Shown here: positions 4,458-55,926 of the stretch, one piece after another
Layout of the letters: each line of letters starts with the position of its first letter
How positions within the stretch are numbered: position 1 is the first letter of the stretch
From: a virus
Strand: one strand, 5' to 3'
DNA: 57,784 nucleotides
IMG/VR virus record: IMGVR_UViG_3300044742_000189
Location: 1-57,784 of that record
Notes under the pieces: model-generated
Databases searched by the model: none
The model's input: only the letters and a program-made list of their open reading frames with translations
Told to the model about the DNA's origin: nothing
Made by a program: the position numbers and the translations under genes

Positions 4458-5018
4458 TCAGGCGGCCCTCACTTTGTCGAATGGAACCTCCACGACGTGC
4501 ATAGATCCGAGCATATTGAGCAAGACCCTCACGCCCTTTTTTGTGACGCTGTCGATCTTGGTCTCCTGGACATCAGAGCCGATGTATACGTTGACCTTTT
4601 TGCCGGGTTGTAACGCCTTATGTAGACTGACCTCCGTTGCGCCTGATGTCCCCTCAACCAAGGCGGATAGCATTCTCACGTCGGCGTCGGAAAGGATGAG
4701 GGGCGACCATTCTCCCCTTGCCCGGCTAACGATGCCCTTAATTTCTGGGATGGCGCCGCGCAGCGCTAGATAATCCATCTTCACGTCTTGGAGGCCGGCA
4801 AACACATAGGTCGGGAATAGCGCGTATTTCCGGAGTTTGACCTGGTTCTTGCCTGGGCGCGTTTCGTGGACGATCTCGACGGGCAGTAACGCGGGGCGCT
4901 CCCACTGGGTAATGCGATGGAGAACAAGGAACTCTATCCTGTGTTGCGGCACAGTTTTTAGGGCTACCCAAGAGAGCATTTGGCGTCGTCTCCATTTTTC
5001 TGCGCTGACGCCAATCAC
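4458..5018 (-). CDS. NusG/RfaH-like transcription antitermination protein
   Basis: 186 aa. The N-terminal NGN-like part begins SWVALKTVPQHRIEF and includes LFPTYVFAG. The C-terminal KOW-like part runs from LQPGKKVNVYIGS to EVPFDKVRAA. Host NusG paralogues bind RNA polymerase and make it processive. This phage copy lies between the early and packaging genes on the same strand, as expected of a late-gene antiterminator. The start is GTG 5018, in a GTGA overlap with the upstream gene; ATG 4979 is an alternative just before the domain. Confidence 0.85.
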   Translation of the reverse strand: MIGVSAEKWRRRQMLSWVALKTVPQHRIEFLVLHRITQWERPALLPVEIVHETRPGKNQVKLRKYALFPTYVFAGLQDVKMDYLALRGAIPEIKGIVSRARGEWSPLILSDADVRMLSALVEGTSGATEVSLHKALQPGKKVNVYIGSDVQETKIDSVTKKGVRVLLNMLGSMHVVEVPFDKVRAA

Positions 5019-5455
5019 CGAGGATCGTATTGCCGGATCTTGGTCTCGAAGTGATCCGCGAGCTTGCGAGCGAGTTCTAGGGCTTCATGATTTGTGAAAC
5101 GGCCGACGCCTAGGTACGTCTTGTCCCCATCAGGGACGAGGTCGATCTGGGTGAGCTGGTTGGCGATGGCGTTGCGGGTGGCTTCGCTGGTCTGCAGGCG
5201 GCGCAGGTATTCCGGGTCGTTGGATGGGAGCTTGAGGGTTTCCATCCCCTCACGGATTGCCTCTGTGCTCTCAACAAGACGCAGCAGCAGATCATGGTCC
5301 TGCTCGGCTAGGAGCTTGTCGGCTTCGCGCTCGAGCGGATCGACCTTGTGATACCCACTAGCCGCGAGCAGTCGGTCCTCGCGTTCGGCTCGCGTGTCAG
5401 CTGCGCCGGAGACATCGCGCAGAGACATCAGCTTTGATTGCTTCTTGCGTGCCAC
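5015..5455 (-). CDS. Hypothetical charged helical protein
   Basis: 146 aa from GTG 5455, which overlaps the methyltransferase stop (TAGTG); its own stop overlaps the next GTG. It is basic at the N-terminus (ARKKQSKLMSLRDVSG), then strongly helical and acidic (READKLLAEQDHDLLLRLVE), with a final globular segment (KTYLGVGRFTNHEALELARK). The longer frame up to 5554 lies inside the methyltransferase gene and was rejected. No family was recognised. Confidence 0.75.
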   Translation of the reverse strand: MARKKQSKLMSLRDVSGAADTRAEREDRLLAASGYHKVDPLEREADKLLAEQDHDLLLRLVESTEAIREGMETLKLPSNDPEYLRRLQTSEATRNAIANQLTQIDLVPDGDKTYLGVGRFTNHEALELARKLADHFETKIRQYDPR

Positions 5456-6393
5456 TATGGTGCCTCCGAGAGGGTGAGCTGTTCTGGTTCTGGAGCTTTG
5501 GCGGACTCCACGAACATGTCGGGTTGATTCATGGCTTCGGTGATGCGACGACATGCGATCTCGAAGTAAGTTGGCTCTATCTCAATTCCGATGAAACGCC
5601 GACCAAGCTTCACACACGCGACGCCGGTTGACCCAGACCCCATGAACGGATCAAGGATGGTAGCGCCATCCGCTGACACAACCGTCAGCAGTTGTTTCAT
5701 GAGATCAACGGGCTTCTCAGTCTGATGCTCACGCTCAGATGAATGCATTCGCGGGATCGTCAGCACGTTCCCATAGTCAAAGCTGTGATAGGCGGCGGTA
5801 CCTTTTGCGAAATGCATCGCAAGCTCATGCTGAGCACGAAAGCCCGTCCCTAGCCCAGCATTCCCTTTGTTCCAGACCACAAGGTTCTGATAGCGGAATC
5901 GCGCACTTTCGATGGCCGGGGCTAGGTGGCCTGCCATCCTCCAATCCGTGAACGCCGTTAGCGTGCCCCCGTCAGGAAGTAACTGGTAGCACCAGCCCGC
6001 CACCGAGCTCATGAGCCACGAAATGCCCGCCGTCGTCATGTTGTCGCCAGCGAACCAACCAACATCGCGAATAGTCTCGGAGCGCAAACCCATCCCCTTC
6101 GCCTGCTTTTTGCCCGTCTCGGAGAACCCACCGCTGCAATACGGAGGGTCCATCACCACGGCGTCGACGCGCGGCAGAAGCGGCAAGATTTGGGTGCAGC
6201 CGCCCAGGTACAGCTTATGCGGCCCGATCCTCTCGCAGCGAAACGACACCAGCTTCTGTCTCATCGTATCAATGGCGAGGTCGTAGCACTTGGCGGAATT
6301 GTCGGCGGCGTCATAGCCGTCGTCTTCCACCCTCGCGTAATAGTTACGGAGGCAGTTGAGCAGAGCGAGGGGAGGCTTGCGCTTTCTGGCCAT
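5455..6393 (-). CDS. DNA methyltransferase, beta class (N6-A or N4-C)
   Basis: 312 aa. The catalytic motif DPPY (residues 82-85) precedes the AdoMet-binding motif DPFMGSGSTG (~248-257), the order that defines beta-class amino-methyltransferases. The target-recognition region lies between them. DPPY methylates an exocyclic amino group on adenine or cytosine. It resembles orphan phage and prophage enzymes and does not look like canonical CcrM around DPPY. No restriction partner is nearby. Likely roles are protection from host restriction or altering methylation read by GcrA-type regulators. The ATG 6393 start abuts the previous stop. Confidence 0.93.
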   Translation of the reverse strand: MARKRKPPLALLNCLRNYYARVEDDGYDAADNSAKCYDLAIDTMRQKLVSFRCERIGPHKLYLGGCTQILPLLPRVDAVVMDPPYCSGGFSETGKKQAKGMGLRSETIRDVGWFAGDNMTTAGISWLMSSVAGWCYQLLPDGGTLTAFTDWRMAGHLAPAIESARFRYQNLVVWNKGNAGLGTGFRAQHELAMHFAKGTAAYHSFDYGNVLTIPRMHSSEREHQTEKPVDLMKQLLTVVSADGATILDPFMGSGSTGVACVKLGRRFIGIEIEPTYFEIACRRITEAMNQPDMFVESAKAPEPEQLTLSEAP

Positions 6394-14294: not shown

Positions 14295-14549
14295 TTACGC
14301 TGCCGCTTGAGCGCGCCCGCGACGGCGCCCCTTCTCACTCTGTAGGCGCTCGGCGATACGGTTGGCCTGGTAAATTTGGTCGACCGTCCGGCCGCTAAGC
14401 TCCATGATCATCGGCCAATGGTCCTCAGGGATGCCGTTTCGGTACCACTTGAAGACGGCCTCGTTTGTTACCGCAGAGGCCGTCCTCTGAGACGCCCTCG
14501 AAACAGCTATGGCTCCGCCGCAGTCCTTGATGATCTCGCGAACAGTCAT
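14295..14549 (-). CDS. Cro/YdaS-like repressor of the lysogeny switch
   Basis: 84 aa from ATG 14549: MTVREIIKDCGGAIAVSRAS, a helix-turn-helix with AVTNEAVFKWYRNGIPEDHW, as in YdaS/Cro-type proteins. It is divergent from the CI-like gene across an 85-bp intergenic region, the classical switch layout. Its predicted promoter overlaps operator 14562-14576 and would give a leaderless or nearly leaderless mRNA (the -10 ends 6 nt before ATG). It is first gene of the minus-strand operon. Confidence 0.85.
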   Translation of the reverse strand: MTVREIIKDCGGAIAVSRASQRTASAVTNEAVFKWYRNGIPEDHWPMIMELSGRTVDQIYQANRIAERLQSEKGRRRGRAQAAA

Positions 14550-14555
14550 AGTTGT

Positions 14556-14584
14556 AGTGTATGGAAGTAAAATCCACTTTGCAA
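14556..14584 (-). promoter_or_regulatory. Promoter of the cro-like gene, with repressor operator
   Basis: On the minus strand TTGCAA (-35) and TACACT (-10) are separated by 17 nt; the -10 ends only 6 nt before ATG 14549, so the transcript should start at or beside the initiation codon. The operator TGGAAGTAAAATCCA (14562-14576) lies in the spacer. The same 15-bp pattern recurs twice at the early plus-strand promoter, so one repressor can shut both. Confidence 0.72.
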
Positions 14585-14634
14585 GCTGCTTTTTTCCGTT
14601 ATGGTGGAAGTGTTGCGCTGATACGCTCGCGGTC

Positions 14635-15252
14635 ATGGAATGGCATGCTCGGTTGCTGCAGCGCATCAAAGACCTAGGCTGGCCCAAAGTGGAACTCGCC
14701 CGGCGAGCCGGCCTAGACAAAGATCGGCTGTATAAGTGGTTGCGGGGCGGGGTCGATCATCCGCGCGGCGATGTTCTTGAGCGGCTGGCGAAAGCGGTCG
14801 GCTGGACGGAACACTTTCTGCTTTACGGCGTAGAACTGGACCAGAGTGATGATCGACTGCCCTTCTATTCGTGGGGGGAATTGAAAATGTTGGATGTTGT
14901 TAGGCGTAACAGCGCCGAGGCGGTTGGCATGCTGAAGCCAAATAATGATGTGGGGCCAGACGCTTTCTATACGACAGCGCCAGACAACAGCAACGCGCCC
15001 GGCATCATGACTGGAGATCGGTTGCTTTGTGATCCGGCCAAGCCGGCCGCGCCCGGCGTCTTCGTTATCGCCAAGGTGGTCGGCCATGCCGACCCCATCC
15101 TCGCCCGCTACAAAGTCAAGAAGACCAAAGGCGGCAAGCCGATAGCGGTCGATCTCGTTCCAGACAATGATAAGTTCGAAACCGTCGAGGTGCGGCGGAT
15201 GGCGGACATGCAAATTCTGGGGCGTGTCGTCTACAGAACGCACCCTATCTAG
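14635..15252 (+). CDS. CI-like phage repressor (HTH + S24/LexA-type domain)
   Basis: 205 aa. The N-terminal helix-turn-helix (WPKVELARRAGLDKDRLYKW, residues ~16-35) is followed by a linker and a C-terminal S24-like part. DNSNAPGIMTGD matches the GDSMxPxIxxGD pattern with Ser in the catalytic place, and a Lys follows in the ARYKVKK segment. This fits a repressor that dimerises and can self-cleave on SOS induction. The start is the ATG before the HTH, as the longer frame crosses the promoter region. It maintains lysogeny by binding the TGGAAnTAAnnTCCA sites. Confidence 0.92.
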   Translation: MEWHARLLQRIKDLGWPKVELARRAGLDKDRLYKWLRGGVDHPRGDVLERLAKAVGWTEHFLLYGVELDQSDDRLPFYSWGELKMLDVVRRNSAEAVGMLKPNNDVGPDAFYTTAPDNSNAPGIMTGDRLLCDPAKPAAPGVFVIAKVVGHADPILARYKVKKTKGGKPIAVDLVPDNDKFETVEVRRMADMQILGRVVYRTHPI

Positions 15253-20838: not shown

Positions 20839-21184
20839 GGCCGCCGCCAAGTACCTCACCGTGCAGGATTGTCTTGCCCGCTTACCAATCCGAATGAGTG
20901 AGCGAACGTTTCGCGATAAGGTGCGCAAGAACGGTTGCTGTCACGAGCACCGCAAGCAGATATTCTTGTCAGAGGAGCAATTCGCTACGTTCCTGGAGAC
21001 CTTGACCCCATGCGCAACATCCGCTCGACGCTCGCGCCGTACTGGCACAAAGGGCGCCGGAAATGGTATCCCCGCGGCACGTATCCGGTCAAAGACGAGA
21101 CCGGCCACATTGTTCGAAAACGAGGTTTCGTCGGCGCGGGCTCAGATTCGAAGGCTGTGTGCCAAGTCGACTGTGACCGCCTAA
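20831..21184 (+). CDS. Excisionase-like HTH protein
   Basis: 117 aa. The N-terminal ~60 residues (KYLTVQDCLARLPIRMSERT, FRDKVRKNGCCHEHRKQIFL) form a winged HTH as in Xis/AlpA proteins. The last ~58 residues overlap the integrase gene by 175 nt in another frame and are low-complexity. It lies directly before int, as expected for a directionality factor. The long overlap could mean the stop is later than in relatives. Confidence 0.68.
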   Translation: MSEAAAKYLTVQDCLARLPIRMSERTFRDKVRKNGCCHEHRKQIFLSEEQFATFLETLTPCATSARRSRRTGTKGAGNGIPAARIRSKTRPATLFENEVSSARAQIRRLCAKSTVTA

Positions 21185-22101
21185 GCCGGGAATTCGAGGC
21201 CGAGGCGACCTCTGGCCCGCTTGAGCCGACATTTGCGGAAGCCGTCGCCACCTACCTGGGCACGGGCGGGGATAGGCGGTTCCTGGGCGAGACCGAGGAT
21301 GGTCCGACCAACCGGCTGCTGGATCAGCTTGGGCACGTCAGAGTGAATGATATCACCGATACGGTGATGGTGCATGCCGCCGCAGCGGTCTATCCCACGG
21401 CAACGCCGGCTACCATCAACCGGCAGTTATATACACCTGTCATTGCGGTGCTGAGGATGGCGGCGAAGGGCAGGCCGTGGAAGCCGGACCTGACCCGCCC
21501 CAGGGGGCATAGCGACATCAAGCCAGCCGAGGCGCCCCCGGATACATGGTTCAAGCCGCTGCTGCCCCAGTGTCGGCCGCAGCTCGCCGCCGTCCTGCTG
21601 TTCTGCACGACGTCTGGCAGGCGGGCCGGAGAGGCCATCAAGTGCCTGCCCAGTAGCTACGACCCAGAGAGGGGAACGGTTCTGATCGGGCGGGACAAGC
21701 GCGGCAACCCGATCTTGGTCCAGGTCGCCAAGCAGGTGCAGGAGGCACTTGGGTTCTACGATTGGAAGGCGGGGCCGGGGCTATTCGGCTACTACACCCC
21801 GAGGAACCGCCGCAACCTGTTCCGCGACCTCGAGGCGGCCTGCGAGCGCGCCGGGGTCAAATACTACACCCCACACAAAGTTGGCCGCCACGCCTTTGCC
21901 AAGCGCTTCCTGGAGGCAGGCTATTCGATCGCCCACCTGATGGGTGCTGGCGGCTGGGACGACCCCAAGATGCCCACCAAGTTGTACGGTCATTACGCCT
22001 ACTCAGAAGTTGCAGAGGACGCTAAAAAGGTTGGCGAGGCATTCCTGACCAAGATCGAGACCAGAGACAACGTGGTGGAATTGAAAAGATTGAAAAAGTA
22101 G
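21010..22101 (+). CDS. int: Tyrosine recombinase integrase
   Basis: 363 aa from ATG 21010. Catalytic residues seen: Arg in TTSGRRAGEAI (~204/205), the TPHKVGRHAF box (His ~289, Arg 293), Trp in GGWDD (316) and the nucleophile Tyr in TKLYGHY (~326). The N-terminal ~70 residues are arm-binding/SAM-like (APYWHKGRRKWYPRG). It recombines attP with attB; attP lies 0.6 kb downstream, in a tRNA-Thr 3' fragment. The start is inside the xis-like gene. Confidence 0.94.
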   Translation: MRNIRSTLAPYWHKGRRKWYPRGTYPVKDETGHIVRKRGFVGAGSDSKAVCQVDCDRLSREFEAEATSGPLEPTFAEAVATYLGTGGDRRFLGETEDGPTNRLLDQLGHVRVNDITDTVMVHAAAAVYPTATPATINRQLYTPVIAVLRMAAKGRPWKPDLTRPRGHSDIKPAEAPPDTWFKPLLPQCRPQLAAVLLFCTTSGRRAGEAIKCLPSSYDPERGTVLIGRDKRGNPILVQVAKQVQEALGFYDWKAGPGLFGYYTPRNRRNLFRDLEAACERAGVKYYTPHKVGRHAFAKRFLEAGYSIAHLMGAGGWDDPKMPTKLYGHYAYSEVAEDAKKVGEAFLTKIETRDNVVELKRLKK

Positions 22102-40468: not shown

Positions 40469-42622
40469 TTACGCGGCGCGACCCACTTCCACCCATAAGG
40501 TTGAAAGGCGGCGCAATCTAACGGTGCTGTTGGAGCCCATTGCGAAATTAACATCCCCCGCCAGGCGGATTGATCCGCCTGTAACGAGCGTTGTGTTGGC
40601 GTTGGTGGCATAGATCGTTATTTCCTGTCCATCCACGCCGTTGGTGAAATTTGTAATCGATGTGGGCGCGCTATTGGTGGCGGTAAACACACTGCGGCCC
40701 CCGAGCACAGACGGCGTGGTCGAATTGTTTGTCAGCAGGTAGCTCTGGACGCTCTCCTGCGTCGTATAAACATTGTCATTTATGGCGGCGTCGAGTACGT
40801 CAACCCTGAGGTCCGCGGTGGTATTTCCCGAGCAATTGTTACCGTTAACGGCTAGGCGCGTAAACGCACCGTTATTTACGCATAGGACGCCGTATCGCGA
40901 ATTGTTGCGGCATTGATTGCTGGCGACCGTCAACCCGTTGACCTCGTCTGACGCACCCACCGCTATGCCAGAGATGCCGTCTTGGGTGTTATTGTAGCAA
41001 CTGTTGCCCACAACGATCACACCGTTTATGTGGCGTGTGCCGACCCCTGCGTTGACCAAAATGCCAGCAACCTGCGTCCGCGCGCCAGCCGCTCGCGTAT
41101 CGAAGCAGCTGTTCGCTGAAATCGTCGTGTTTGATGTCTCATCGATTACGATGCCGTACAGATTATCGCTGCAGCTGTTGCCGACGCATGTGGAATTGTC
41201 AATGGTCAGCAACGCTATCCCGCCCTCTGGGTGAACGCTGCAGACGTTGCCCGTGATCGTGATGCCCGATGGTACGTCGTCCTCGGTCAGATACACAACG
41301 TCACACTGTATCCCGCTGAAGCCATTGTTGCGGCACACGTTGCCCGTGATCGCGAGATTGGTGGTTGTGAAGCCCAGCGCCCCGTTGAATATGATCCCGG
41401 AGCCGACAGCGCCTTGGCAATTGTTGCCGTACACCACCCCGCCCGTGCAGGTCATGCTGATAGCGGACCCGCCCGTATCACTAACGACGTTTCCGAACAC
41501 GACCGGCTCGATCTCCAGCTCGTCGGTGGCGTAATAGCCGATCTTCAGTCCGCCGGCACCGTTGGCAATGATACCGTCGGATACGCTATTGAAGAGATAC
41601 CTGCAGCCCTCATTGCCAAGTGCGCCGATCTGCGAAAAATAGCCGCCGCCCGTGACGGTGTTATAGGAAATTTCGCAGTTGGCACTATTCGACATTGCGA
41701 TCTGCGCGCCGTCGAACGCTTGCCCGTCAAGAACTGTGCGTGTCCACACGCAATTGGCGCAGTCGTCGATATAAACCCACACCAACCCGAGATTGCCGCG
41801 CGTGTTGTCCGCTGCCGCGGTGAATTTGATCACCGCAAGCTGCCCGTCGATAACAAGATCGCTGCGGCTGACGACGGTTAGTCCGTTCTCATCAACCAGG
41901 TAGGTACCGGGCGGGAAGACAATTTTTGCGCCATCTGGTGCGCCGTCGATTGCAGCCTGAATGCTGGCGGTGTCGTTTGTTACGCCGTCGCCCGTGGCGC
42001 CGTGGGCCGATACATCGATAACGCTAGGGCCAATGTAGAGCTTAAACACGTATACGCCGCTTTCCTTGCGGTAGCGCGTTCGCAGACTGTTGCGGCTCTC
42101 ATCAACGAACACCTCGACGACGGCAAGATTCGACAGCCCCGCGAGCGCAGCGTTCGCGGCTGACTTGGTGTCGTAGAAATTGATAGCGCCGGATGCCTCG
42201 GCCGCGGCTTCGGCCGCTGCGGCTGAGCCAGCGGCACCTGAGGCGGAGGTGGCCGCCGCCGCAACGCTGGCAGCGAGCATAGTGGGATCTTCCGCAATCG
42301 CAACCAGATCTTCAATTATGATCGCCGGCAGGCCGCCAACGACATCCTTGATCCCAGACGAGAAGTTAACGGCATTGCCTTCGTTGCTTGACGACAGAAT
42401 TTCTGTGCGGGTCAGGGTGTCGCCGCCAGCGCCATATGTGTACTCGGCTATCTCCCATTGCGGCAGCAGACGATGCGAAACGGTGAGATAGATTGTGTCG
42501 TCGTCCTCAAGAACATCCCGCGCGTTCTGGTAGCCGTTGAACGACGGGGAATTAAGCGTTAGTGCTCCCGTCCCCGTGGTTGAGGTGGAGTCGAGCACGC
42601 GGTCTGCAAAGACGTGGGCCAT
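40469..42622 (-). CDS. Tailspike with right-handed beta-helix (pectate-lyase-3 type)
   Basis: 717 aa. N-terminal head-binding part (~1-200, with an Ala-rich SAAAAEAAAEASGAINF stretch). The start of the beta-helix is VIDVSAHGATGDGVTNDTAS, with FPPGTYLVDENG. Many parallel-helix coils follow, repeating N-x-C and 'GNxCxxN' (GNNCQGAVGSGIIF, GNVCRNNGFSGIQC). The C-terminal ~80 residues are a trimer-type cap. Such spikes bind and hydrolyse surface polysaccharide. Confidence 0.9.
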   Translation of the reverse strand: MAHVFADRVLDSTSTTGTGALTLNSPSFNGYQNARDVLEDDDTIYLTVSHRLLPQWEIAEYTYGAGGDTLTRTEILSSSNEGNAVNFSSGIKDVVGGLPAIIIEDLVAIAEDPTMLAASVAAAATSASGAAGSAAAAEAAAEASGAINFYDTKSAANAALAGLSNLAVVEVFVDESRNSLRTRYRKESGVYVFKLYIGPSVIDVSAHGATGDGVTNDTASIQAAIDGAPDGAKIVFPPGTYLVDENGLTVVSRSDLVIDGQLAVIKFTAAADNTRGNLGLVWVYIDDCANCVWTRTVLDGQAFDGAQIAMSNSANCEISYNTVTGGGYFSQIGALGNEGCRYLFNSVSDGIIANGAGGLKIGYYATDELEIEPVVFGNVVSDTGGSAISMTCTGGVVYGNNCQGAVGSGIIFNGALGFTTTNLAITGNVCRNNGFSGIQCDVVYLTEDDVPSGITITGNVCSVHPEGGIALLTIDNSTCVGNSCSDNLYGIVIDETSNTTISANSCFDTRAAGARTQVAGILVNAGVGTRHINGVIVVGNSCYNNTQDGISGIAVGASDEVNGLTVASNQCRNNSRYGVLCVNNGAFTRLAVNGNNCSGNTTADLRVDVLDAAINDNVYTTQESVQSYLLTNNSTTPSVLGGRSVFTATNSAPTSITNFTNGVDGQEITIYATNANTTLVTGGSIRLAGDVNFAMGSNSTVRLRRLSTLWVEVGRAA

Positions 42623-42862: not shown

Positions 42863-43055
42863 AAACCATTCTCCTTGTTGTTTGACCCCATCTACTAAGC
42901 GAGGCTACTCGGAAGTTGTTGTTGGAAGGCCATGACCATTGGCGTGCCCATTTCTGTGGAAACTGCTTAACTGGCTTTCCGGTTTTAGGTGTTGACAAGG
43001 CATCTCTCCTCCACTATGTTGACTCCGGAAGTTGATGTGGAACGGGGAGACGGAT

Positions 43056-43379
43056 ATGCGAGAAGAAAAGCGCACGATGGCTGTCGAGGCCACGATCTAT
43101 ATTTGCGATGATGGGACAGAGTTTGCTCCCACGATAGAGGGCATGGAGCCCGGTAATCTCAAGTGGCGCCAAGACGATGCGAAGTCGAGGGCCGCGCGCC
43201 ACCAGAGCCAAGTTGAGAGGCGAGCAAAACTTACACCGATGCTGGAGAGGCTGTTTGGCGCCAGGGCTGACGAGGTCAAGGCGGCAATGGATGTGCCTGC
43301 GATGCAGTGCCTAGAAAGGCGCTGGCGCGTCCTAGAAACGCTCGACAACCAGTTGGAGAGTCGAAAGCAAGCATCTTGA
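43056..43379 (+). CDS. ISL3 accessory ORF
   Basis: 107 aa from ATG 43056 (GGGGAG upstream). A Cys/Asp-containing start (TIYICDDGTEFAPTIEGMEP) is followed by a helical body (QSQVERRAKLTPMLERLFGA). It lies upstream of the transposase with a TTGA overlap, so is probably coupled to it. Not recognised as a known transposition helper. Confidence 0.72.
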   Translation: MREEKRTMAVEATIYICDDGTEFAPTIEGMEPGNLKWRQDDAKSRAARHQSQVERRAKLTPMLERLFGARADEVKAAMDVPAMQCLERRWRVLETLDNQLESRKQAS

Positions 43380-44866
43380 ACCACGCCCTCATGCTCGTCG
43401 GCTGGGACGTTACCGAGGTCAAGATCGTCGGTAACGTCCAGGAGGCCACAGCGACCTACGGCCCGGCACTGGAGGAATGTCCCAAATGCGGCGTTGTTGG
43501 GCGCCTCTACCGTCATGGCACCAAGACCGTCGAATACCGGGACGCTCCCGCATTCGGCAAACAATTCGTTATTCGCTGCAAAGTCCAGCGCTTCCGCTGC
43601 CGCGATTGCAATGAGACATCCATGCAACCTCTGCCGGACATGGATACCAACCGGCAGATGACTAAGCGCTGTGTGGCCTATGTCGAGCAGCAGGGCATTC
43701 CGCGCACATTTGCCGAAGTGGCGCGCGACATAGGTGTGGACGAGGCGACAGTCAGAAGCATTTGCACGGCCTACTTCAAATCGAAGATGAAAGGCCACAA
43801 TCACGTCACCGAGGCGCCGGTTGCCCTCGGGATTGACGAATTGATGCTTGATAGGCGCATGCGGGCCATATTCATGGACCTCGGGATTGGTCGCCCCATC
43901 GATATCATCGGCAGCCATAGCAAATGGGAGGTCGCCCGCTGGCTTTCGCAGATGAAGCATCGCGACCGCGTTAAGATCGTCACCATCGACATGACGGGCC
44001 ATTACAAGGATGTGGTTCGAGGCAACCTGCCGAACGCGGTCGTCGTTATCGATAAGTTCCACGTTTTGCGGTACGCCGACGATGCTCTGAAGAAGGTTCG
44101 CGCCAAAGCCCGCAGGAAGGCCGAGGGAGGCACCGGCAAGAATCCGAGACGGAACGTCACCATCCTGCGAAAACGCGCCCACAGGCTCTCCCCGGCGCAG
44201 GAACTGGCCCTTGATGGGATTATCAAGAACGATCCAGTTGTCGGCGCTGCGTATCTCGCCAAGGAGGCGTTTCACAACATCTGGCAAATGACCAACCGCA
44301 TCCAAGCTGAAAAGCTGTTCGCTGATTGGGCTGCCAGCCTCGCGCCCGAAATCAGACGCGAGTTCGGGGTAGTGGCCAGAATGGTGGAGCGCTGGCACGA
44401 GGAGATATTCGCCTATTTCGACTATCGGGCCACGAATGCCGTAACCGAGAACAGAAACGGCTTGATCAAGCACGTCAATCGGTCTGGGCGCGGGTACTCG
44501 TTTGAAATCATCCGCGCCAAGGCTCTTCTCGCTGAGTCGCTGTATTCTGGCCCGATGCGCAAATGCGAGTACTGCAAAGGCGACTATCCAGCGAAGGCTT
44601 TCAGGCGGCTGCCCATCTTTGACAAGGTCTCTATCGATCCGAAAAGCCGAGCGCCCGTGGCGCGCATAATGCGGATCGCCGCCAAGAAACTGCCGGAGAG
44701 TTGCCTGAACTGCCATTATTCGATGTTCACGGTTAGCAAAGGACCGCCGCCCGAGCCCGGTCCAGATAGCGTGGAGATATCGTTTGCCGAAGCCATCTCG
44801 ACTCCATTGCACGCGCTTGTCGCCAAATACGGGACGGACAAATTCCACGGCGGAGGTCCGATGTGA
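43376..44866 (+). CDS. ISL3-family transposase
   Basis: 496 aa from TTG 43376 (or ATG 43391). N-terminal zinc fingers (CPKCGVVGRLYRHG, FRCRDCNETS), then an HTH (FAEVARDIGVDEATVRSICT), then the DDE core: GIDELMLD, VTIDMTGHYK, VVIDKFHVLRYADDA, and Glu in NAVTENRNGLIKHVNRSGRG. All ISL3 landmarks are intact. The C-terminus carries a CEYCKGDYP...CLNCHY zinc pair. Intact ends imply an active element. Confidence 0.94.
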   Translation: MNHALMLVGWDVTEVKIVGNVQEATATYGPALEECPKCGVVGRLYRHGTKTVEYRDAPAFGKQFVIRCKVQRFRCRDCNETSMQPLPDMDTNRQMTKRCVAYVEQQGIPRTFAEVARDIGVDEATVRSICTAYFKSKMKGHNHVTEAPVALGIDELMLDRRMRAIFMDLGIGRPIDIIGSHSKWEVARWLSQMKHRDRVKIVTIDMTGHYKDVVRGNLPNAVVVIDKFHVLRYADDALKKVRAKARRKAEGGTGKNPRRNVTILRKRAHRLSPAQELALDGIIKNDPVVGAAYLAKEAFHNIWQMTNRIQAEKLFADWAASLAPEIRREFGVVARMVERWHEEIFAYFDYRATNAVTENRNGLIKHVNRSGRGYSFEIIRAKALLAESLYSGPMRKCEYCKGDYPAKAFRRLPIFDKVSIDPKSRAPVARIMRIAAKKLPESCLNCHYSMFTVSKGPPPEPGPDSVEISFAEAISTPLHALVAKYGTDKFHGGGPM

Positions 44867-44887
44867 CGAGTGTTCATTTGTTATCAG

Positions 44888-45310
44888 TTACACCCTCAAT
44901 ACCGGAAAGCCGCTTAACTCGCGACACGCTGGACACTTGTTGCTAACGCCAATGCTCTCCCTGCCCGGCACCGGGTAAGAGACTGTTTCGACCGCATCGG
45001 CCTCGAATTGGCCGAGGCACATCTCGCACATCGTGAAGTCTCCCCCGAGATTGCGCATCCGCATGGCCTTGGCGCGGAGGATTGGAAACGTGTACCCGTT
45101 GCCGGCGCCATTGAGTGCCCGGATCAGTTTGTTGCGGTACTCGGTGTAGGCGTTGGTGAAGGGATAGTCGAAGAAATGGAATATCTCCTTGCGCCATTCC
45201 TGGACGGTTGCTGCGGCATCCTCAAACTCCGGGATCGAGGATGCATGCTTGATGCGCCAGTCGTCGAACATACGCTCAGCCTTTCTTTGCGGCGGCTTGT
45301 CGTAAAGCAT
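44888..45310 (-). CDS. ISL3-transposase C-terminus-like phage gene, interrupted near its end by the IS
   Basis: Residues 1-133 resemble the C-terminal quarter of ISL3 transposases: VQEWRKEIFHFFDYPFTNAY, TEYRNKLIRALNGAGNGYTF, LRAKAMRMRNL, and then CEMCLGQF...CPACREL. The catalytic Asp residues are missing, so it is not a transposase by itself. The final residues (GFPVLRV) are encoded by the IS end. If the IS and one target copy are removed, the frame continues through 42964-42905 (SFHRNGHANGHGLPTTTSE). The start is ATG 45310 or 45271. A domesticated zinc-binding fragment or a remnant. Confidence 0.75.
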   Translation of the reverse strand: MLYDKPPQRKAERMFDDWRIKHASSIPEFEDAAATVQEWRKEIFHFFDYPFTNAYTEYRNKLIRALNGAGNGYTFPILRAKAMRMRNLGGDFTMCEMCLGQFEADAVETVSYPVPGRESIGVSNKCPACRELSGFPVLRV

Positions 45311-45431
45311 CCCGCATTGGGGCTAACTCTACATGGGCGCGCATCAGTGCGGCGCGTATAATGACGGTTGTTCTATCGTGGCGGCGACTTCGTTTTGGTG
45401 TCGCGGCCACGGTGGTTGGTGGTTTCTTCAT
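45276..45431 (-). CDS. 51-aa basic protein
   Basis: MKKPPTTVAATPKRSRRHDR then an alpha-helical end (MRDALRQAAAKKG). ATG 45431 overlaps the stop of the upstream gene (ATGA); it overlaps the start of the ISL3-C-like gene in another frame. One of the two may use a later start. Confidence 0.55.
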   Translation of the reverse strand: MKKPPTTVAATPKRSRRHDRTTVIIRAALMRAHVELAPMRDALRQAAAKKG

Positions 45432-45955
45432 TTCATGCGATCCAACACATTACGTGTGTCGTGGTCGGCGCTATCCAATTCAAGCAAGGGATTGCGATAG
45501 CCTTCGCCATACCTATTGCTCAGGATCGAGGCTAGATCATTAGCTGGCATCGGGTCGTTGACTTTTGGCTTCGGCGCCGTGCGCCCGCTGCCAATCGTCC
45601 AGGCCACGTACGCAGCATTAGCTAATGCGGTAACCAATCCAAGCCACCCAGGCCCTCCCATTCGGCCGCCGGCAAGTTTGCTTGCCAGCCCATCCAATGC
45701 GGATGCGGCGCCATATGCCGCTATCCCCCCGTGCAGTCCCACACCTTGGTAGCGATACGGTAGATCACCGACGAGCCCTTCCGGCAGATAGTAAGCATGG
45801 TCGCCGTTTGGGCGATAAAAGCCACCTTCGCTTCGCTTCGGGTCCGTTAGTGTAACACCTGGCATGCTGGGCGCGGGAGCTTGATAGCTGCTGCCGTTGC
45901 CGTAATGCTCCTTCAATAGCTGGACCAAGGCATTATGGTCACTGTATTCGGCCAT
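45428..45955 (-). CDS. Virion-associated hypothetical, paralogue of 32822-33316
   Basis: 175 aa. YLPEGLVGDLPYRYQGVGLH, GGIAAYGAASALDGLASKL, AAYVAWTIGSGRTAPKP match its partner at 32.8 kb across ~75 residues. There the unit is preceded by a different N-terminus. It has a hydrophobic Gly/Ala central part, so may contact membrane. Lies between a fibre gene and the tailspike region. Unrecognised family. Confidence 0.74.
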   Translation of the reverse strand: MAEYSDHNALVQLLKEHYGNGSSYQAPAPSMPGVTLTDPKRSEGGFYRPNGDHAYYLPEGLVGDLPYRYQGVGLHGGIAAYGAASALDGLASKLAGGRMGGPGWLGLVTALANAAYVAWTIGSGRTAPKPKVNDPMPANDLASILSNRYGEGYRNPLLELDSADHDTRNVLDRMK

Positions 45956-47779: not shown

Positions 47780-48535
47780 TTAGGAAACCTTGCGCCAGTT
47801 GAATGTGATCGTGCCGGTGAAGGTCACAGCGCCTGCCGCGTCCACGTTGGCCCAGCCATCAGCTACGTTCAGAAACAAATCGTGCGACAGTCCGCCGGTG
47901 GTCTTGATCCAAACGCCCATGGTGCTGGCCGCCAGCATGCCCTTTAACACGAAGGTATCGCCCGCGACGTTCGGCAGAATCGCGGTGCCGCCTACGACGC
48001 CGCCGGCCGCACCGCCGTCGATATAGTCCTCCATGGTGGTGGACAGCGTTGTGACGGCGCCCGTTCCAACGGTGGAACCGACACCATACTCTGGTGTATC
48101 GGTCGTGACAGAGATTGCGGCGGTGAACTTGCCAAAAATCACCATATCCTTGACCACGATATCGCCGGCCGGAAAGGTGTAGAACTTCGCGCCAATCGCA
48201 AGGTTAGAACTGTCGCCGGACGTGCCGATCGCGAATGCGGTCATAGTTAGTTTGGTGAAGTGGTCGACATCGCTGCCGGATTCTAGGGCTGCCGTGGTTG
48301 CCGAGGTGGTGACGGTCCCAGCGGTGCCGTCTGGCAACCAGGCGCTTCCACTGTAGACGTTAATCAGGCCCGTCGTGGTGTTGTAGATGGCATCGCCAGC
48401 CTTAGCACCACCCGATCCCGTCAGCGCGTCCCGCTGCGTGGTCGTCAGGTTGTTGAGGCGCAAACCCGGGTGGTCTGTGCCCTCAAACTGGTGACGCTTA
48501 CTCCAGACGATCGGGATATCACGATGCACGGACAT
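47780..48535 (-). CDS. Appendage/fibre-like structural protein, 251 aa
   Basis: [40 protein letters not shown] and LPDGT are features of phage fibre shafts and appendages. The rest is beta-rich. The UXS gene overlaps its start by 17 nt. It is a possible substrate of the glycan cassette next to it, though nothing proves it. Confidence 0.72.
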
Positions 48536-49535
48536 GGGTTGTCCTTTCAGAAGGTTGATGACTCATGTCCGCACGGGCCTTTCCATTCGGCCGCACCGAT
48601 TTCATTAGGATCGTCTCGAAGTATGCAATCGTCGCCGTCAGGCCGTCGCGCAATGGCACGGTCGGCCGCCAGCCCAGCTCCGTCTTGGCGAGCGCGATGT
48701 CGGGCTGGCGCTGGCGCGGGTCATCTTGCGGCAGCGGCAGATACACGAGCTTCGATTTCGATCCCGTAAGCTCGATCACGAGTTCAGCAAGGTCATTCAT
48801 GGAGAACTCAGAGGGATTGCCGAGGTTGACCGGCCCAGTGAATCCGTCCGAGTTCTCCATGAGTCGAACCAGACCGCGCACCAAGTCATCGACGTAGCAG
48901 AACGATCGCGTCTGGCTGCCGTCGCCGTAGATGGTGATCGGCTTACCCTTTAGGGCCTGCACGATGAAGTTCGACACCACGCGCCCATCGTTTGGGTGCA
49001 TGCGCGGGCCGTAGGTATTGAAGATGCGTGCGACCTTGATATCTAGGTGATGCTGGCGACGGTAATCGAAGAACAGAGTCTCGGCGCAGCGCTTGCCCTC
49101 GTCGTAGCAGGCCCGCGGCCCCACAGGGTTGACGTTGCCCCAGTAGTCCTCGCGCTGCGGATGCTGGCTTGGATCGCCGTAGACCTCACTCGTTGAGGCT
49201 TGCAGAATGCGACACTTGAGGCGCTTGGCGAGACCCAGCATGTTGATGGCGCCATGCACGCTGGTTTTCGTCGTCTGCACAGGATCGCGCTGATAGTGAA
49301 CTGGCGAGGCTGGGCACGCCAGGTTGTAGATTTCGTCGACCTCTACATACAGAGGAAGCGTCACATCATGGCGCAACAACTCAAAGCGCGGATGGCCAAT
49401 GCGATGCTCGACGTTACGCTTGTTGCCCGTGACGAAATTGTCTAAGCACAGCACCCCATGACCGGCCTCGAGCAGGCGGTCACACAGATGCGAGCCGAGA
49501 AACCCGGCGCCGCCGGTCACCAGGATGGATTTCAA
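48519..49535 (-). CDS. UDP-glucuronate decarboxylase (UDP-xylose synthase) family
   Basis: 338 aa from TTG 49535 (GGAG 8 nt upstream; TTGA overlap with the preceding gene). TGGAGFLG (residues 7-14) binds NAD; the catalytic pair is in CYDEGKR (Tyr-x3-Lys). [12 protein letters not shown] and [14 protein letters not shown] are UXS-type. It converts UDP-glucuronate to UDP-xylose. It is first of four glycan genes placed between decoration and fibre genes. The C-terminal tail is phage-specific. Confidence 0.9.
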
Positions 49536-50632
49536 TTCAGGTACTCCGCCCATTGGCGAGCTCGGATCGCCCATGTGTGATGCCGGTTCATATGAACTGC
49601 CTGGGCATAGAGCGCAGCGGCATCGGTCTCGATGGAATAAGGGCGGTCAACGATGGCGCGCGTGTAGTCCCGCACATATTTTGGTTCGTCCTTGAAATCG
49701 ATAGGCACGAGATCGGCAAAGCCCTCAGTCGTTTCCGGGAGCGCGGCGAAATCACTCGTCACCACACGCATTCCCGCGGCCATTGCTTCCATCACAGCTA
49801 TGCAGCTCGTTTCCGGGAATATGTTGGGATAGGCGAGGATGTGCGCGTGCGCGAGGCGTTCGGCGAGAGCCGGCTGAGGCAGGGAGCCGACGTACTCCAC
49901 GCCATCAGTGGACCTCAGGGCGTCGTACATGCCGCTGAACATTTCCGCGTCGAAAACCTCGTGCTTCCGATAGACAGCCATGCTCGAGAAGACGCTTAGC
50001 TTGGCTTCCGGGTTGCTTCGTCGGTACTCCGGGAAGATGTCGAGCAGATGCTTCAAGCCGCGGTATGGCGTGCTGGTATAAGCCAGCGTCAACGGGTTGG
50101 ACTTAGCCCTGACCAGATCATCAGGCGAACGGAACAACCCCTCGAAAGACGGCGCGATCGCATTGCGGATGGTGGTCAGCCGATCAGGGGCGAGACCGAA
50201 CGTCTCGATGTAAGAGTTGCGCTGCCAATCCGACACGCAAACGATGCCATCCCAATTCTCGCTGATCTCCTTGACGGCCAGCCTGCACATCGCCGGCTGC
50301 ACCGTCTCGTGCTGCGTCCACAGGATCAGCTTCGTCGATGGCGGCAGATCGGAGCGCCGCTTGCTACCGCTCGACGAGTTGAGGACGATAACAGCGTCGA
50401 ACTTGCGCTCGCGAAAGAATGCACCACTGCAAAGGCGGGCGTTGATGCACTCGACCCCGGATACTATGGCCGGGCGCTTCGTGCCGGACATAACCGTGAC
50501 TGTGTGCCCCACCTTGGCAAGCGCCACCGCGAGGTAACACAGCGCCGACTGAGACCCGCCGAGCGGCCCGACCGTAGGCGCATCGACGTTGTAGTCCCAG
50601 TCCGTGAGATCAACGAAGCAGAGGCGCATCAC
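49532..50632 (-). CDS. Glycosyltransferase, family 4 type
   Basis: 366 aa. Features of GT-B fold retaining enzymes: N-terminal [20 protein letters not shown], middle [20 protein letters not shown], and the E-x7-E type donor site [20 protein letters not shown]. Transfers a nucleotide-sugar, plausibly xylose from the neighbour's product. ATG 50632 in ATGA overlap. Confidence 0.87.
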
Positions 50633-51351
50633 GCTGCCGAGCCCATCTTCTCTGGTCTATCGGCGGCGCTCTTGGTAAAATCCCCGGCCCAGACGTTGCG
50701 GCCCGCATGCAGGAGCTTGATTACCGGATCGAGCCAAATCTTGAAGCCTGCACGTGTGGCGAATACGGAGAACGCATAGTCCTCTCCCCACCACATCGGC
50801 TTGCCCTTGGCATTCTTGGGAAACCCATCGATGAGACCCGTTGGGAACAGATCAATCACATCGGACTGGAACGGCTCGTGGTAAAACGTGCGGCCCGCAT
50901 GCTCGGCATACAAAACCTCTATGACCTCGCGCTTGATGAGCAAGAACCCGGTTGCGACCATGTCGCACTGAAGCAGGCCAAAGTCATCGGGTATGCCATC
51001 GGTCAACGCATACGGCCATGTCTTGGTTGGAGGCAGACCAGGCGCGACCTTCTTAGGGTAGGGCGCCACGATGATATCGCGGTCGTAGCTGAGCAAGCGA
51101 CGCAGGGCGCCCGCGGGGGCCGCTACGTCGTCATCCCAGAAGAACAGATGACTGCAACCAGACTGCATGAACTGATGGGTGAGAAGATTGCGGCACAGAT
51201 GCACGTAGCAGTTGCCGTGCAAGAAATTGACCTCCGGCCTCTCTTTATCGGCCTCCTGCATATCGAGGACCGTCGCGTTGAGACTGACGATGCAATCGAT
51301 GTCCGGCTTACCCGTACCTGACGGCATGGCAATGAAAACGCGTTCTTTCAT
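50629..51351 (-). CDS. Glycosyltransferase-like protein, GT-A fold
   Basis: 240 aa. FFWDDDVAAPAGALRRLLSY holds the DxD metal motif; ATGFLLIKREVIEVLYAEHA and WWGEDYAFSVFATRAGFKIW (acidic catalytic Glu-Asp) are GT-A landmarks. Possibly adds the first sugar to a protein. ATG 51351. The upstream methyltransferase stop lies 8 nt before. Confidence 0.83.
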   Translation of the reverse strand: MKERVFIAMPSGTGKPDIDCIVSLNATVLDMQEADKERPEVNFLHGNCYVHLCRNLLTHQFMQSGCSHLFFWDDDVAAPAGALRRLLSYDRDIIVAPYPKKVAPGLPPTKTWPYALTDGIPDDFGLLQCDMVATGFLLIKREVIEVLYAEHAGRTFYHEPFQSDVIDLFPTGLIDGFPKNAKGKPMWWGEDYAFSVFATRAGFKIWLDPVIKLLHAGRNVWAGDFTKSAADRPEKMGSAA

Positions 51352-51358
51352 CCTGTCC

Positions 51359-52141
51359 TCATGTCTTGCGCACCTGAGCGATGAAGTACCCGTTGTGCCA
51401 ATCGCTTTTGCCGCGGGTGTACTTGTCGGGTGGGTGGCTGTCGTTCTTAGTGGTGCGAATCTCGATGGCGTGATCTACGCGAAGTCCGGCATCTATTAGC
51501 GCCTTCAGCGTTCCAGTCCTGACCCCGAGCCAGTTCCAGTCGTCTACGATGAGGGTGTAGCTATCGGCGAGCGCATGCTGAGCGCGCCTGATCCCTTCGT
51601 AGTGATCCTGCTCATTGTGCGGCCCGTCGAACACATACACATTGAACGGGCCGCCCTTGATGCTGGAATATCGGACATCCCGGAAGTCGGACTCAATAAC
51701 CTCTAGCGTGGCATCGGTTCTGATGGCGGCGATATTGGCAAAGAAGTCCTCACGCGGGCCGCCATACTCGGACCAATTATCAATGCAGCAAGCGTGCCCC
51801 TTATTGCCCTCGATGGCAGAGGCAAGCGTCGAACCCTTCCACGATCCGACCTCGAGGTAGCGAGCGTCAGATCCGAGCAACCGCATCAACTGGTTGATGA
51901 ATATCCGATACCTACGGCCAGACATTCCATCTAAGCCGAGCACAAATGGCGAGGGGCGAGCAACTGTCGGACTGATAGCGGCCAGCATGGCTTGGCCGAT
52001 AAGCGTGCCGCTGGTGACTTGATCCCACCATCCCAATTCCTCTCGGTAGGATGGTTCTGCCAACCGCCGCTGGCGGTGTAGATCGGCCCGTGCGTCACCG
52101 TCTGAGAATTGGGGCGAGCCCATTTGCGCAGGCTCGCCCAT
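51359..52141 (-). CDS. SAM-dependent methyltransferase (Methyltransf_24-like)
   Basis: 260 aa. YLEVGSWKGSTLASAIEGNK is the AdoMet-binding loop; CCIDNWSEYG follows; VYVFDGPHNEQDHYEGIRRA and YTLIVDDWNWLGVRTGTL are typical of the family that methylates sugars in glycan cassettes. It lies in the cassette with two glycosyltransferases and UXS. Start ATG 52141. Confidence 0.85.
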   Translation of the reverse strand: MGEPAQMGSPQFSDGDARADLHRQRRLAEPSYREELGWWDQVTSGTLIGQAMLAAISPTVARPSPFVLGLDGMSGRRYRIFINQLMRLLGSDARYLEVGSWKGSTLASAIEGNKGHACCIDNWSEYGGPREDFFANIAAIRTDATLEVIESDFRDVRYSSIKGGPFNVYVFDGPHNEQDHYEGIRRAQHALADSYTLIVDDWNWLGVRTGTLKALIDAGLRVDHAIEIRTTKNDSHPPDKYTRGKSDWHNGYFIAQVRKT

Positions 52142-52696: not shown

Positions 52697-53242
52697 ATGC
52701 AGAACAGCGACGAGATTTGGAAGGTCATCCCCAACTATGGGGATTGCTATTCGGTATCCAATCGTGGGCGAGTTATGCGCTTGAAACGCGGGCCCGGCAC
52801 AAGGCCGGGTCGCATTTGCAAGCCAGCATACTTGCGGGGATATGCTCGCTACAGGTTAAGCGTTAATGCCGAGCACCCACGCATGTTCAACGCCCACCGT
52901 CTCGTCTACGAGGTCTTCGTTGGCCCGATCCCGGAGGGAATGCAGATCAATCACAAGAACGGCATCAAGGACGACAACAGACCAGAGAACCTTGAGGTCG
53001 TTACTGCGTCTGAGAACAAACTGCATGCTCATCGCGTTTTGGGTCTGCCCGGCAATATCAACTCAATGCCAGGCGAAACAAATCCAAGAGCGAAAGTGAA
53101 CTGGGATCAGGTTCGCGAAATCCGCCGACGCTACGCAGTCGGCGGCATCAGTCAGCAGGCTCTCGCCGATGAATTCCGCCTTGACCAAACGGTGGTAAGC
53201 CGAATTGTCAGAGGAACTATTTGGAAAGAGCCGATCGCATAA
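52697..53242 (+). CDS. HNH homing endonuclease (NUMOD4 + HNH)
   Basis: 181 aa, against the late genes. A NUMOD4-like start (IWKVIPNYGDCYSVSNRGRV) precedes HNH: FNAHRLVYEVFVGPIPEGMQ, INHKNGIKDDNRPENLEVVT. A C-terminal HTH (ISQQALADEFRLDQTVVSRI) follows. Free-standing, between decoration and capsid genes; likely cuts an intronless site in relatives lacking it. Confidence 0.92.
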   Translation: MQNSDEIWKVIPNYGDCYSVSNRGRVMRLKRGPGTRPGRICKPAYLRGYARYRLSVNAEHPRMFNAHRLVYEVFVGPIPEGMQINHKNGIKDDNRPENLEVVTASENKLHAHRVLGLPGNINSMPGETNPRAKVNWDQVREIRRRYAVGGISQQALADEFRLDQTVVSRIVRGTIWKEPIA

Positions 53243-53264: not shown

Positions 53265-54398
53265 TCACGCGTCCCCGACTGCGGCAAACCACCCGGTGAC
53301 AATGCCATTGTCGATGAACGTCCCGTCGACGCCGTGCTTGCGCATGATCTTGTTGACGCCAACCATCTCCTCGATGCCCGCGCCGGTGAAGAAGTCGTAA
53401 TCGGTTTCCTTCTTCTCGGTCGGCCTCGGCTCCTGACCCCAAGCAGCGCAAATCGCCTGTGCGCCGCAAAGGAAGGCGCCGCCGCAGACGACTGATCCGC
53501 TGTTGGTGATCGTCGGGAACTCCGGGATCTCGCGGATGATGACGCCGTCATGGATAAGGTCGCCGTCCTGAAACAGCGGGTTGTTATCCATGCCGTTGCC
53601 CTCACGGGAGCGAGCGTCACGATTGTTTGAGATGATCGTGCTGTCGCCCTTCAAATCCCGGAACGATCTTGAGTTTGTGAACAGGACGTAATACTCGCGA
53701 CCCGCTTCCGAGTCGGTGCGGATTGGCCGGATGTGCGGATCGCACGTCTTGGCCAGCCGCTTCATGACGCCGATTGCCGCCGCCGTGAGCTTGTCGTCGG
53801 TGTTGTCGAGAGTAGCCAACGATGTGGCGAAGTCGGTGGCGTTGTTGGAGATCAACTTGCCGAACAAAGTACGATCCGTATTGGCGGCTCGCCATGTGTT
53901 GTTCTGGGTGCTGGTCGCCGTGATGTTCCAACTATTCAGCGGCGCGGTGACAGTTGCGCATTGTGCGCCGCTGAACGCCACCGAATGCAGTGCATCGATG
54001 ACATCGTCGCGCAGCTTTTCGCTTGACCACTGCTTGAGCAGCGGGCGGGCGGCATCGCGAGCGCTGGAGGCGTCGTAATGCTCATCCTGGGCCGAGAATT
54101 CGATGGCGTTCCTGCGATACTGGATCGTCACCGAATGGCTGTGCTTGCCCAACGACTCCTCTGCACCGGTCAGGCGCGTGTTGCCGACCACGCCGCCGGA
54201 GGTCAAGCGACCAACGAGCGGGATCGTCAACGTCTTGCCCTTGGGCTTCAACTCCATCGCCGTGTGGATGACGGAGGTAATGCCCTCGCTGCCGGTGCCC
54301 ATATATTTCTTGAAGCCGGACTCGCGGACATACTCCAGCCAATACTGCTGCCTCCACTTAGTAAGTACGAGATCTGATGGCGTTGTGGTGGTGGTCAT
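53265..54398 (-). CDS. Major capsid protein, N4-gp56/DUF4043 type
   Basis: 377 aa. MTTTTTPSDLVLTKWRQQYW, ELKPKGKTLTIPLVGRLTSG, YRRNAIEFSAQDEHYDASSA, FTNSRSFRDLKGDST and FPTITNSGSVVCGGAFLCGA are features of the DUF4043/N4-gp56 capsid proteins (HK97 fold). Flanked by two homing nuclease genes, on the opposite strand. ATG 54398. Confidence 0.92.
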   Translation of the reverse strand: MTTTTTPSDLVLTKWRQQYWLEYVRESGFKKYMGTGSEGITSVIHTAMELKPKGKTLTIPLVGRLTSGGVVGNTRLTGAEESLGKHSHSVTIQYRRNAIEFSAQDEHYDASSARDAARPLLKQWSSEKLRDDVIDALHSVAFSGAQCATVTAPLNSWNITATSTQNNTWRAANTDRTLFGKLISNNATDFATSLATLDNTDDKLTAAAIGVMKRLAKTCDPHIRPIRTDSEAGREYYVLFTNSRSFRDLKGDSTIISNNRDARSREGNGMDNNPLFQDGDLIHDGVIIREIPEFPTITNSGSVVCGGAFLCGAQAICAAWGQEPRPTEKKETDYDFFTGAGIEEMVGVNKIMRKHGVDGTFIDNGIVTGWFAAVGDA

Positions 54399-55383: not shown

Positions 55384-55926
55384 ATGCCGCTTACTCAACG
55401 CCAGAAATGGGCTATCAAAAAACGAAACCGTCGCGGATTAACTTGCGAGCGCCTAAAAGAGTTGTTCGTGTACGACCAGGACGCCGGAACCTTTCGGCGC
55501 ACAGTAGATGCGGGAGGCTACAAGGCTGGAGCCATTGCGGGCGGCTCTACTGGCAAGGGATATCACTACATTGGCATCGACGGAGCGCAGTGGCTCACGC
55601 ACCAACTGGCGTGGCTATACGTTTACGGTGAATGGCCATCAATGCAGATCGACCACATCAACGGCAACCGAGCCGACAACCGCATCGCTAACCTACGGGA
55701 GGCCACAGATTCTCAGCAGAGAGCGAATTCCGCCACTCACAAGAACAACACATCAGGCTCCAGAGGGGTGAGCTTCTACGCGAAACACAACCGCTACAAA
55801 GCTAAAATTGCGTACAACGGCACAACGCACTATCTTGGTTGGTTCAAGACACGCGAGGAGGCCGAAGATGCGTACCGCAGAGCCGCTACCCGTCTATTCG
55901 GGGAGTTCTCTGCTGAACTGCGCTAG
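55384..55926 (+). CDS. HNH homing endonuclease with AP2-type domain
   Basis: 180 aa. HNH: WLTHQLAWLYVYGEWPSMQI, DHINGNRADNRIANLREAT (His, Asn, Asn). The C-terminal AP2/ERF-like DNA-binding part reads SGSRGVSFYAKHNRYKAKIA, HYLGWFKTREEAEDAYRRAA. Between scaffold and the 103-aa gene, on the opposite strand. ATG 55384. Confidence 0.93.
   Translation: MPLTQRQKWAIKKRNRRGLTCERLKELFVYDQDAGTFRRTVDAGGYKAGAIAGGSTGKGYHYIGIDGAQWLTHQLAWLYVYGEWPSMQIDHINGNRADNRIANLREATDSQQRANSATHKNNTSGSRGVSFYAKHNRYKAKIAYNGTTHYLGWFKTREEAEDAYRRAATRLFGEFSAELR

Follow-up and report, generated by a model that had tools for sequence, protein, structure and literature searches.

A putative virion glycosylation cassette behind the capsid cement gene of a temperate podovirus-like phage

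The IMG/VR virus record IMGVR_UViG_3300044742_000189 was analysed over its whole length of 57,784 bases, which is called the window here and to which all coordinates refer. On its minus strand, four genes lie directly behind the gene of a capsid cement (decoration) protein. They encode a SAM methyltransferase (MT), a GT-A-fold glycosyltransferase (GTA), a GT-B glycosyltransferase (GT4) and a UDP-glucuronate decarboxylase / UDP-xylose synthase (UXS), and are called the cassette below (Table 1). These enzymes probably serve to glycosylate the shell of the phage itself, of which all that is known comes from environmental DNA. Enzyme families, gene order, the identity of the cement protein and the joint segregation of cement type and cassette were computed. 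L and G labels denote loci and records of relatives in viral contigs, found by homology scans with the window proteins.

The four ORFs are intact, have family and fold matches beyond chance expectation and lie on the same strand as the portal, scaffold, major capsid protein (MCP) and cement genes. Gaps of 9 bp (cement-MT) and 7 bp (MT-GTA) are followed by overlaps of 4 bp (GTA-GT4), 43 bp (GT4-UXS) and 17 bp (UXS-next gene). The sequence-only reading had described genes that overlap end to end, which holds for three of the five junctions and not for cement-MT and MT-GTA; its placement of the cassette inside the virion block, co-directed with the virion genes, is borne out by gene order.

Table 1. 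Positions and matches of the window features. Roles of cassette enzymes are predictions.
Feature	Positions	Strand	Matches and remarks
Large terminase gene	1183-2796	-	
Antiterminator-like gene	4458-5018	-	phrog_6386, 4e-10; upstream of terminase and virion block
Repressor gene	14509-15252	+	
Integrase gene	20935-22101	+	
Spike gene	40469-42622	-	
ISL3-family transposase gene	43307-44866	+	within the tail/spike region
ISL3-family fragment	44888-45310	-	C-terminal part of the same family; convergent with the transposase gene
358-aa protein gene	46039-47115		
Gene downstream of cassette	47780-48535	-	57% homologue directly after cement in cassette-less L008; marks the empty site
UXS, 351 aa	48519-49574	-	PF01370, 6e-53
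GT4, 366 aa, GTG start	49532-50632	-	Pfam and phrog_2170, 8.9e-26; predicted extender
GTA, 240 aa	50629-51351	-	phrog_1574, 1.5e-16; predicted first, protein-directed transferase
MT, 260 aa	51359-52141	-	PF13578, 1e-8; phrog_1458; predicted glycan-capping enzyme
RNA hairpin, 10-bp stem	52112-52139	-	just past the cement stop; overlaps the annotated MT start
Capsid cement (decoration) protein, 154 aa	52151-52615	-	identified by sequence and fold; proposed glycan acceptor
Presumed HNH/homing endonuclease-like ORF	52697-53242	+	between MCP and cement; antisense
MCP	53265-54398	-	phrog_334 / PF13252
Presumed HNH/homing endonuclease-like ORF	55384-55926	+	upstream of scaffold; antisense

The identities proposed earlier for the four enzymes are supported by family and fold matches. 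UXS scores 436 bits to human UXS1 (2b69_A); among the other families the best match reaches 147 bits, UDP-apiose/xylose synthase 96 and ArnA at most 93. Its SDR motifs are retained; the STSEVYG and YDEGK motifs, presumably catalytic, are aligned with those of 2b69. By sequence it is clearly assigned to the UDP-xylose synthases, with a predicted conversion of UDP-glucuronate (UDP-GlcA) to UDP-xylose (UDP-Xyl). GT4 exceeds the cut-offs of three Glycos_transf_1 / Glyco_transf_4 GT-B models (bits/cut-off: PF13692, 39.8/27; PF00534, 38.4/26.4; PF13439, 34.1/28.5). GTA has no Pfam or NCBIfam family, and neither MT nor GTA has a PDB sequence match up to E 1. GTA carries the motif FFWDDDV, with F71, D73 and D75 invariant in 7 aligned rows. 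The top PDB match of its AlphaFold2 (AF2) model (pLDDT 81) is A197 of the archaeal virus STIV (Foldseek, 1.4e-8; VIA Z 17.4, root-mean-square deviation 2.6 over 163 residues, 21% identity). Human collagen lysyl hydroxylase/glycosyltransferase LH3 is tied with A197 (Z 17.1) through residues 294-520, a stretch that presumably forms the accessory and not the main transferase domain of LH3. GTA is modelled as a GT-A fold with a DxD motif, and sugar transfer to protein is predicted. The coat protein of STIV carries glycans, and A197, which the virus cannot do without, is the candidate transferase for it (PMC10551542, PMC4187194, excerpts); protein-directed transfer by A197 itself has candidate status only (PMC10551542, excerpt).

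The label "decoration" given to the gene before the cassette also stands. Its product, with 22.7% Ser+Thr, matches chain 7eel_H of Pam1, "Cement (decoration) proteins", by phmmer (5e-7). The AF2 model (pLDDT 76) matches 7eel_H (2.4e-7) and 8h89_J (3.3e-5) by Foldseek; its VIA Z scores are 14.7 to Pam1 cement, 13.0 to GP4 cement and 10.6 to KHP30 cement. Cement is the next virion gene after MCP, with only an opposite-strand ORF between them.

The other minus-strand genes include an antiterminator-like gene, terminase, portal, scaffold, spike, Hc3 head closure and endolysin; the scaffold call rests on position and relatives. The nearest match of MCP in the GenBank phage collection is from a cyanophage (38%). 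The two ends of the window split the portal gene, which suggests an almost complete genome in circular permutation; across the join, the coordinates put the two halves of the gene in different frames. The phage is temperate, as judged from its repressor and integrase genes.

Relatives of GTA lie among virion genes. Scans with GTA gave 8 distinct loci, all within blocks of virion structural genes. The relative follows MCP/cement in L004, L006 and L151, stands at the start of a contig and upstream of Hc3 in L003 and L005, adjoins SU10-type portal and MCP in L007 (three copies), lies between MCP and Hc3 in L153 and shortly precedes the tape measure gene in L154. Among 49 GenBank records with GTA matches, the three loci viewed are all in virion gene blocks; in two complete Manatee Spring genomes, the relative lies between P22-like coat and tail-adaptor genes. 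A second methyltransferase, MT' (PF08241), replaces MT in L004 and has no detectable similarity to it. In the MT' scan (46 loci), a GT-A gene is adjacent or one gene off in 11 (L003, L151, L155, L156, L157, L158, L164, L182, L183, L189, L197; L155 and L156 are on the same contigs as L004 and L005). A single gene, GT4, separates GT-A and MT' in L003, L155 and L156. MCP, of the phrog_334 and phrog_283 kinds, lies upstream in the available piece of 9 of these 11 loci. Profiles detected no such pair in the other 35 (the MT' ORF of L198 was not called); phrog_1574 occurs elsewhere in four records of those 35 loci (G024-G027). In L183, a radical SAM/SPASM enzyme (4277-5110) is encoded right after GT-A and MT' and before Hc3, which may point to additional chemistry on peptides or sugars at this location. 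The relatives from the MT scan (L049-L069) were compared for other window proteins only.

These locations bear on two explanations in which the virion is not the target. The cassette could modify the host envelope (O-antigen or capsule conversion, superinfection exclusion), from a prophage or during infection. The temperate lifestyle is compatible with this, and phage glycosyltransferases alter host serotype (PMC12619734, excerpt). Against it, the cassette lies amid virion genes, about 26 kb from the integrase gene, and its relatives are found between coat and tail-adaptor genes. No GtrA-type protein was detected in the window or the L004 record (0/2; positive controls 7/14), and no cassette enzyme has a transmembrane-like stretch (19-residue Kyte-Doolittle maximum 1.56). 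Envelope modification is therefore considered very improbable, and the earlier preference for virion over host modification is upheld. The second explanation, pentosylation of phage DNA, is scarcely credible. It has a precedent in Shewanella phage Thanatos, for which pentose-modified cytosine and a UDP-xylose pyrophosphorylase are reported (PMC12838424, excerpt); DNA arabinosylation is also reported for RB69. Thanatos, however, has a hydroxymethylase/thymidylate-synthase-type gene (PMC12838424, excerpt), and PF00303 was found in none of 6 records (the window and 5 related ones; controls 9/14). The cassette is also located in the capsid block. Tet_JBP gave no match, but its positive controls were silent as well.

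Comparison with cassette-less relatives designates the cement protein as the likeliest acceptor. In L008, which has no cassette, the homologue of the gene downstream of the cassette begins 59 bp past the cement gene. This is the empty site, which makes the cassette an insertion between the cement gene and the head gene behind it. L008 is the closest capsid relative of the window (MCP 79%) and has a cement only 32% identical; likewise, L004 and the cassette-less L011 share 80% of MCP and 36% of cement. Cassette phages compared with the window share 67-73% of cement and 58-62% of MCP. L004 (MCP 58%, cement 73%, GTA 66%, GT4 55%, UXS 69%) has the order MCP, cement, second cement, 80-aa gene, GTA, GT4, MT', UXS. 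Its two cement genes are in tandem (4610-5077 and 5080-5547), as are those of L006. L151 (MCP 62%, cement 67%, GTA 54-55%) has the order MCP, cement, GTA, MT', then a gene outside the cassette. Cement and GTA are thus constant among cassette phages; MT or MT' and the pair GT4+UXS vary, the latter two being detected either both or not at all in this group.

Trees and approximately unbiased (AU) tests included 10 phages, 4 with and 6 without the cassette. L012, L014 and L018 are near copies without cassette; L006 was scored as bearing it, its contig ending inside GTA; L009 and L010, whose contigs end near the cement gene, were left out. On the MCP tree, a single cassette clade is rejected (p-AU 6e-6); on the cement tree it is recovered (96/98). 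For cement, AU tests reject a grouping of the window with L008 (2e-5) as well as one of L004 and L006 with L011 (1e-6). The cassette label changes 3 times on the MCP tree and once on the cement tree. At twelve positions, Ser/Thr is found in each of the 7 aligned cements of the cassette type and in none of L008, L009 and L011. The site list draws on 7 cements from 5 contigs, with two cements each from L004 and L006, and includes L009 and L010 with their contig ends near the cement gene. From these sequence comparisons, cement type and sugar enzymes are suggested to travel together. A functional tie between cement and GTA is favoured because both stay while MT, GT4 and UXS are exchanged, and because phrog_1574 is absent from all 17 records, some of them fragments, that represent MCP relatives without the cassette.

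Another virion protein (MCP, spike or a further structural protein) could be the main acceptor, the cement gene being merely a neighbour. This is rather unlikely, since the cassette is not tracked by MCP type, cement type stays with GTA despite changed GT4, UXS and methyltransferase, and the gene on the other side of the cassette is common to the cassette-less L008. In its favour are the glycans reported on capsid and tail-tube subunits of mycobacteriophages (Freeman et al. 2023, as cited in PMC12619734, excerpt), the GTA relatives near tail-collar genes (Synechococcus phage ACG-2014f) and near the tape measure gene (L154), and linkage, which alone could explain the joint transfer of cement and cassette. 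The sequence-only reading had named capsid, decoration or fibre proteins as acceptors; the decoration protein comes out as the likeliest by comparison of relatives, and the fibre is not favoured.

It is also highly improbable that the cassette is a passenger (moron) derived from host polysaccharide genes with no dedicated virion acceptor. Relatives of UXS are common among viral contigs (376 confirmed, the best 80 taken further), and the cassette has a G+C content of 59.1% vs 59.4% for the genome, which would be compatible with a passenger. Against this, all four frames are intact, the order GTA-GT4-(MT')-UXS is kept in a phage group 58% alike in MCP, and a GTA relative occupies this position repeatedly, behind several families of capsid protein.

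The balance of this evidence makes it probable that the cassette of this temperate podovirus-like phage serves virion glycosylation and is expressed late, by read-through together with the capsid genes, with cement as the likeliest acceptor. Several points weigh against this. Activities, glycan and acceptor are predictions from the genes. The recombination of cement and cassette in one tract, with no functional tie, is a fair alternative because cement adjoins the cassette and the tested groups were named after identities had been seen. The two endonuclease-like genes could drive the exchange of adjacent cement and cassette. Independent cassette lineages number about 3 (window, L004 group, L151), L003-L006 being close relatives. 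The cassette is rare: GTA is matched in none of 41 loci of the MCP scan, several of whose contigs end soon after MCP. No GT4 or UXS was seen in L151, whose contig ends about 0.7 kb past MT'. Further GTA-like genes (L064, L091, L097, L100, L131) are outside the count of 8 contexts, and the relative in ACG-2014f adjoins tail-collar genes. GT4 and UXS relatives elsewhere are often away from capsid genes: another window protein was matched in only 4 of the best 80 of the 376 UXS loci, and the GT4 relative of phiM12 lies among non-virion genes. That of HTVC027P, the second of the two viewed among 20 GenBank loci with GT4 relatives, lies in hypothetical genes between tail-collar and structural-protein genes. 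The near folds of cement include a baseplate-tail protein of phage R4C (8gtc, Z 9.9). Lastly, promoter-like sites in the window show no excess (3 vs 5.1 in shuffles); terminator-like sites number 12 (9.3 in shuffles, sd 2.6).

Under the proposed virion glycosylation, late transcription would span MCP, cement and the cassette. GTA would put a first sugar on cement, using a nucleotide sugar supplied by the host as donor. UXS would convert host UDP-glucuronate to UDP-xylose, GT4 would add the pentose, and MT (MT' in relatives) would add a methyl cap to the glycan, giving a capsid whose outer studs bear a methylated glycan. Acceptor, order of steps, sugars, methyl position and late timing are inferred from the genes; the proposed timing comes from gene order and from the antiterminator-like gene, whose position upstream of the virion block is in keeping with late expression. 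As regards the methylated pentose proposed earlier, membership of MT in a SAM-methyltransferase family is retained; the methyl on the pentose and the choice of the enzyme that adds xylose are predictions that go beyond it.

An RNA hairpin follows the cement gene. Its fold is not significant in the window (z -1.6; 17 of 200 shuffles equally good). Hairpins are also found after the cement gene(s) of L151 (z -4.2), L004 (-4.1), L008 (-3.5) and L006 (-2.4). The hairpin is a possible attenuator or processing site and may hold enzyme levels below those of structural proteins. The true MT start may be further downstream than annotated.

Other features of the window lie outside the cassette. Mid-gene stops give the large terminase gene two reading frames; sequencing error, recoding or a decaying prophage are possible readings. 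The ISL3-family transposase gene and the fragment convergent with it lie in a region (43000-45600) where no inverted repeats of at least 14 bp were found. A single fibre-like protein of L008 (14109-15296) matches both the 358-aa protein and the N-terminus of the spike, which suggests shared adaptor domains around the insertion of the insertion sequence (IS). At several loci, relatives of the two endonuclease-like ORFs adjoin genes for head or tail proteins. The host is not indicated: the alphaproteobacterial host proposed earlier is not supported, two bacterial-genome scans (GTA alignment, MCP) having confirmed no relative. The IS region matched no plasmid by megablast, and the 2898 plasmid records matched by the transposase protein are each below 60% identity and indicate no host.

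Known systems limit what is new. In mycobacteriophage Corndog, an O-methyltransferase and three transferases (gp35-gp38) are encoded within the head genes, and a methyl/glycan modification of the capsid was proposed (PMC4351075, excerpt). Rhodococcus cluster CB phages, with glycosyltransferase (GT) and MT genes, are suspected of capsid modification likewise (PMC13313380, excerpt). With these precedents and the mycobacteriophage glycans (PMC12619734), the earlier claim of novelty, made for an alphaproteobacterial podovirus that builds methylated pentose on its own capsid or fibre, is too strong. The window resembles the actinobacteriophages in having GT and MT genes within the virion/head block; it differs from them in its P22-like MCP, its cement protein and its nucleotide-sugar synthase. 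Unlike in Corndog, the cassette follows cement and is not between portal and protease. In the GenBank phage collection, which does not contain Corndog, no Mycobacterium phage is among the matches of GTA, MT and GT4 at 1e-5; cement and MT' had no match there at this threshold. STIV shares the compact GT-A fold and has a glycosylated coat; it is an archaeal virus with an unrelated capsid and a donor presumed to be host-derived. The cements of cyanophage Pam1 and Ralstonia phage GP4 are similar in fold, that of Pam1 also in sequence. The two Manatee Spring genomes, Podoviridae sp. ctkAd229 (MW202691) and Myoviridae sp. ctTUS972 (MW202573), also carry GT-A between P22-like coat and tail adaptor. 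A methyltransferase gene, whose product weakly resembles MT', precedes GT-A in ctTUS972. In ctkAd229 and ctTUS972, unlike in the window, no UXS or GT4 is annotated beside GT-A, and GT-A is 26-32% identical. No description of a cement-linked glycosyltransferase cassette in podoviruses was found in the open-licence literature. With the actinobacteriophages as precedent, the P22-like capsid, the cement-linked module and its own UDP-xylose supply are new.

More tentatively, cement type and a dedicated A197-like GT-A could form a "glyco-cement" module, a unit that can be moved from one kind of capsid to another. UXS+GT4 and the unrelated MT/MT' would be exchanged behind it, giving switchable capsid glycotypes. 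If the proposed glycosylation is true, phage-encoded capsid glycosylation would reach podovirus-like phages beyond the actinobacteriophages, with a predicted acceptor (cement), a self-supplied UDP-xylose step and a modular change of coat. The presence of phrog_1574 beside coat/portal genes in P22-like, phrog_283 and SU10-portal phages would then make capsid glycosylation by one family far wider than in actinobacteriophages, and this family, of "unknown function" in PHROGs, would gain a testable role.

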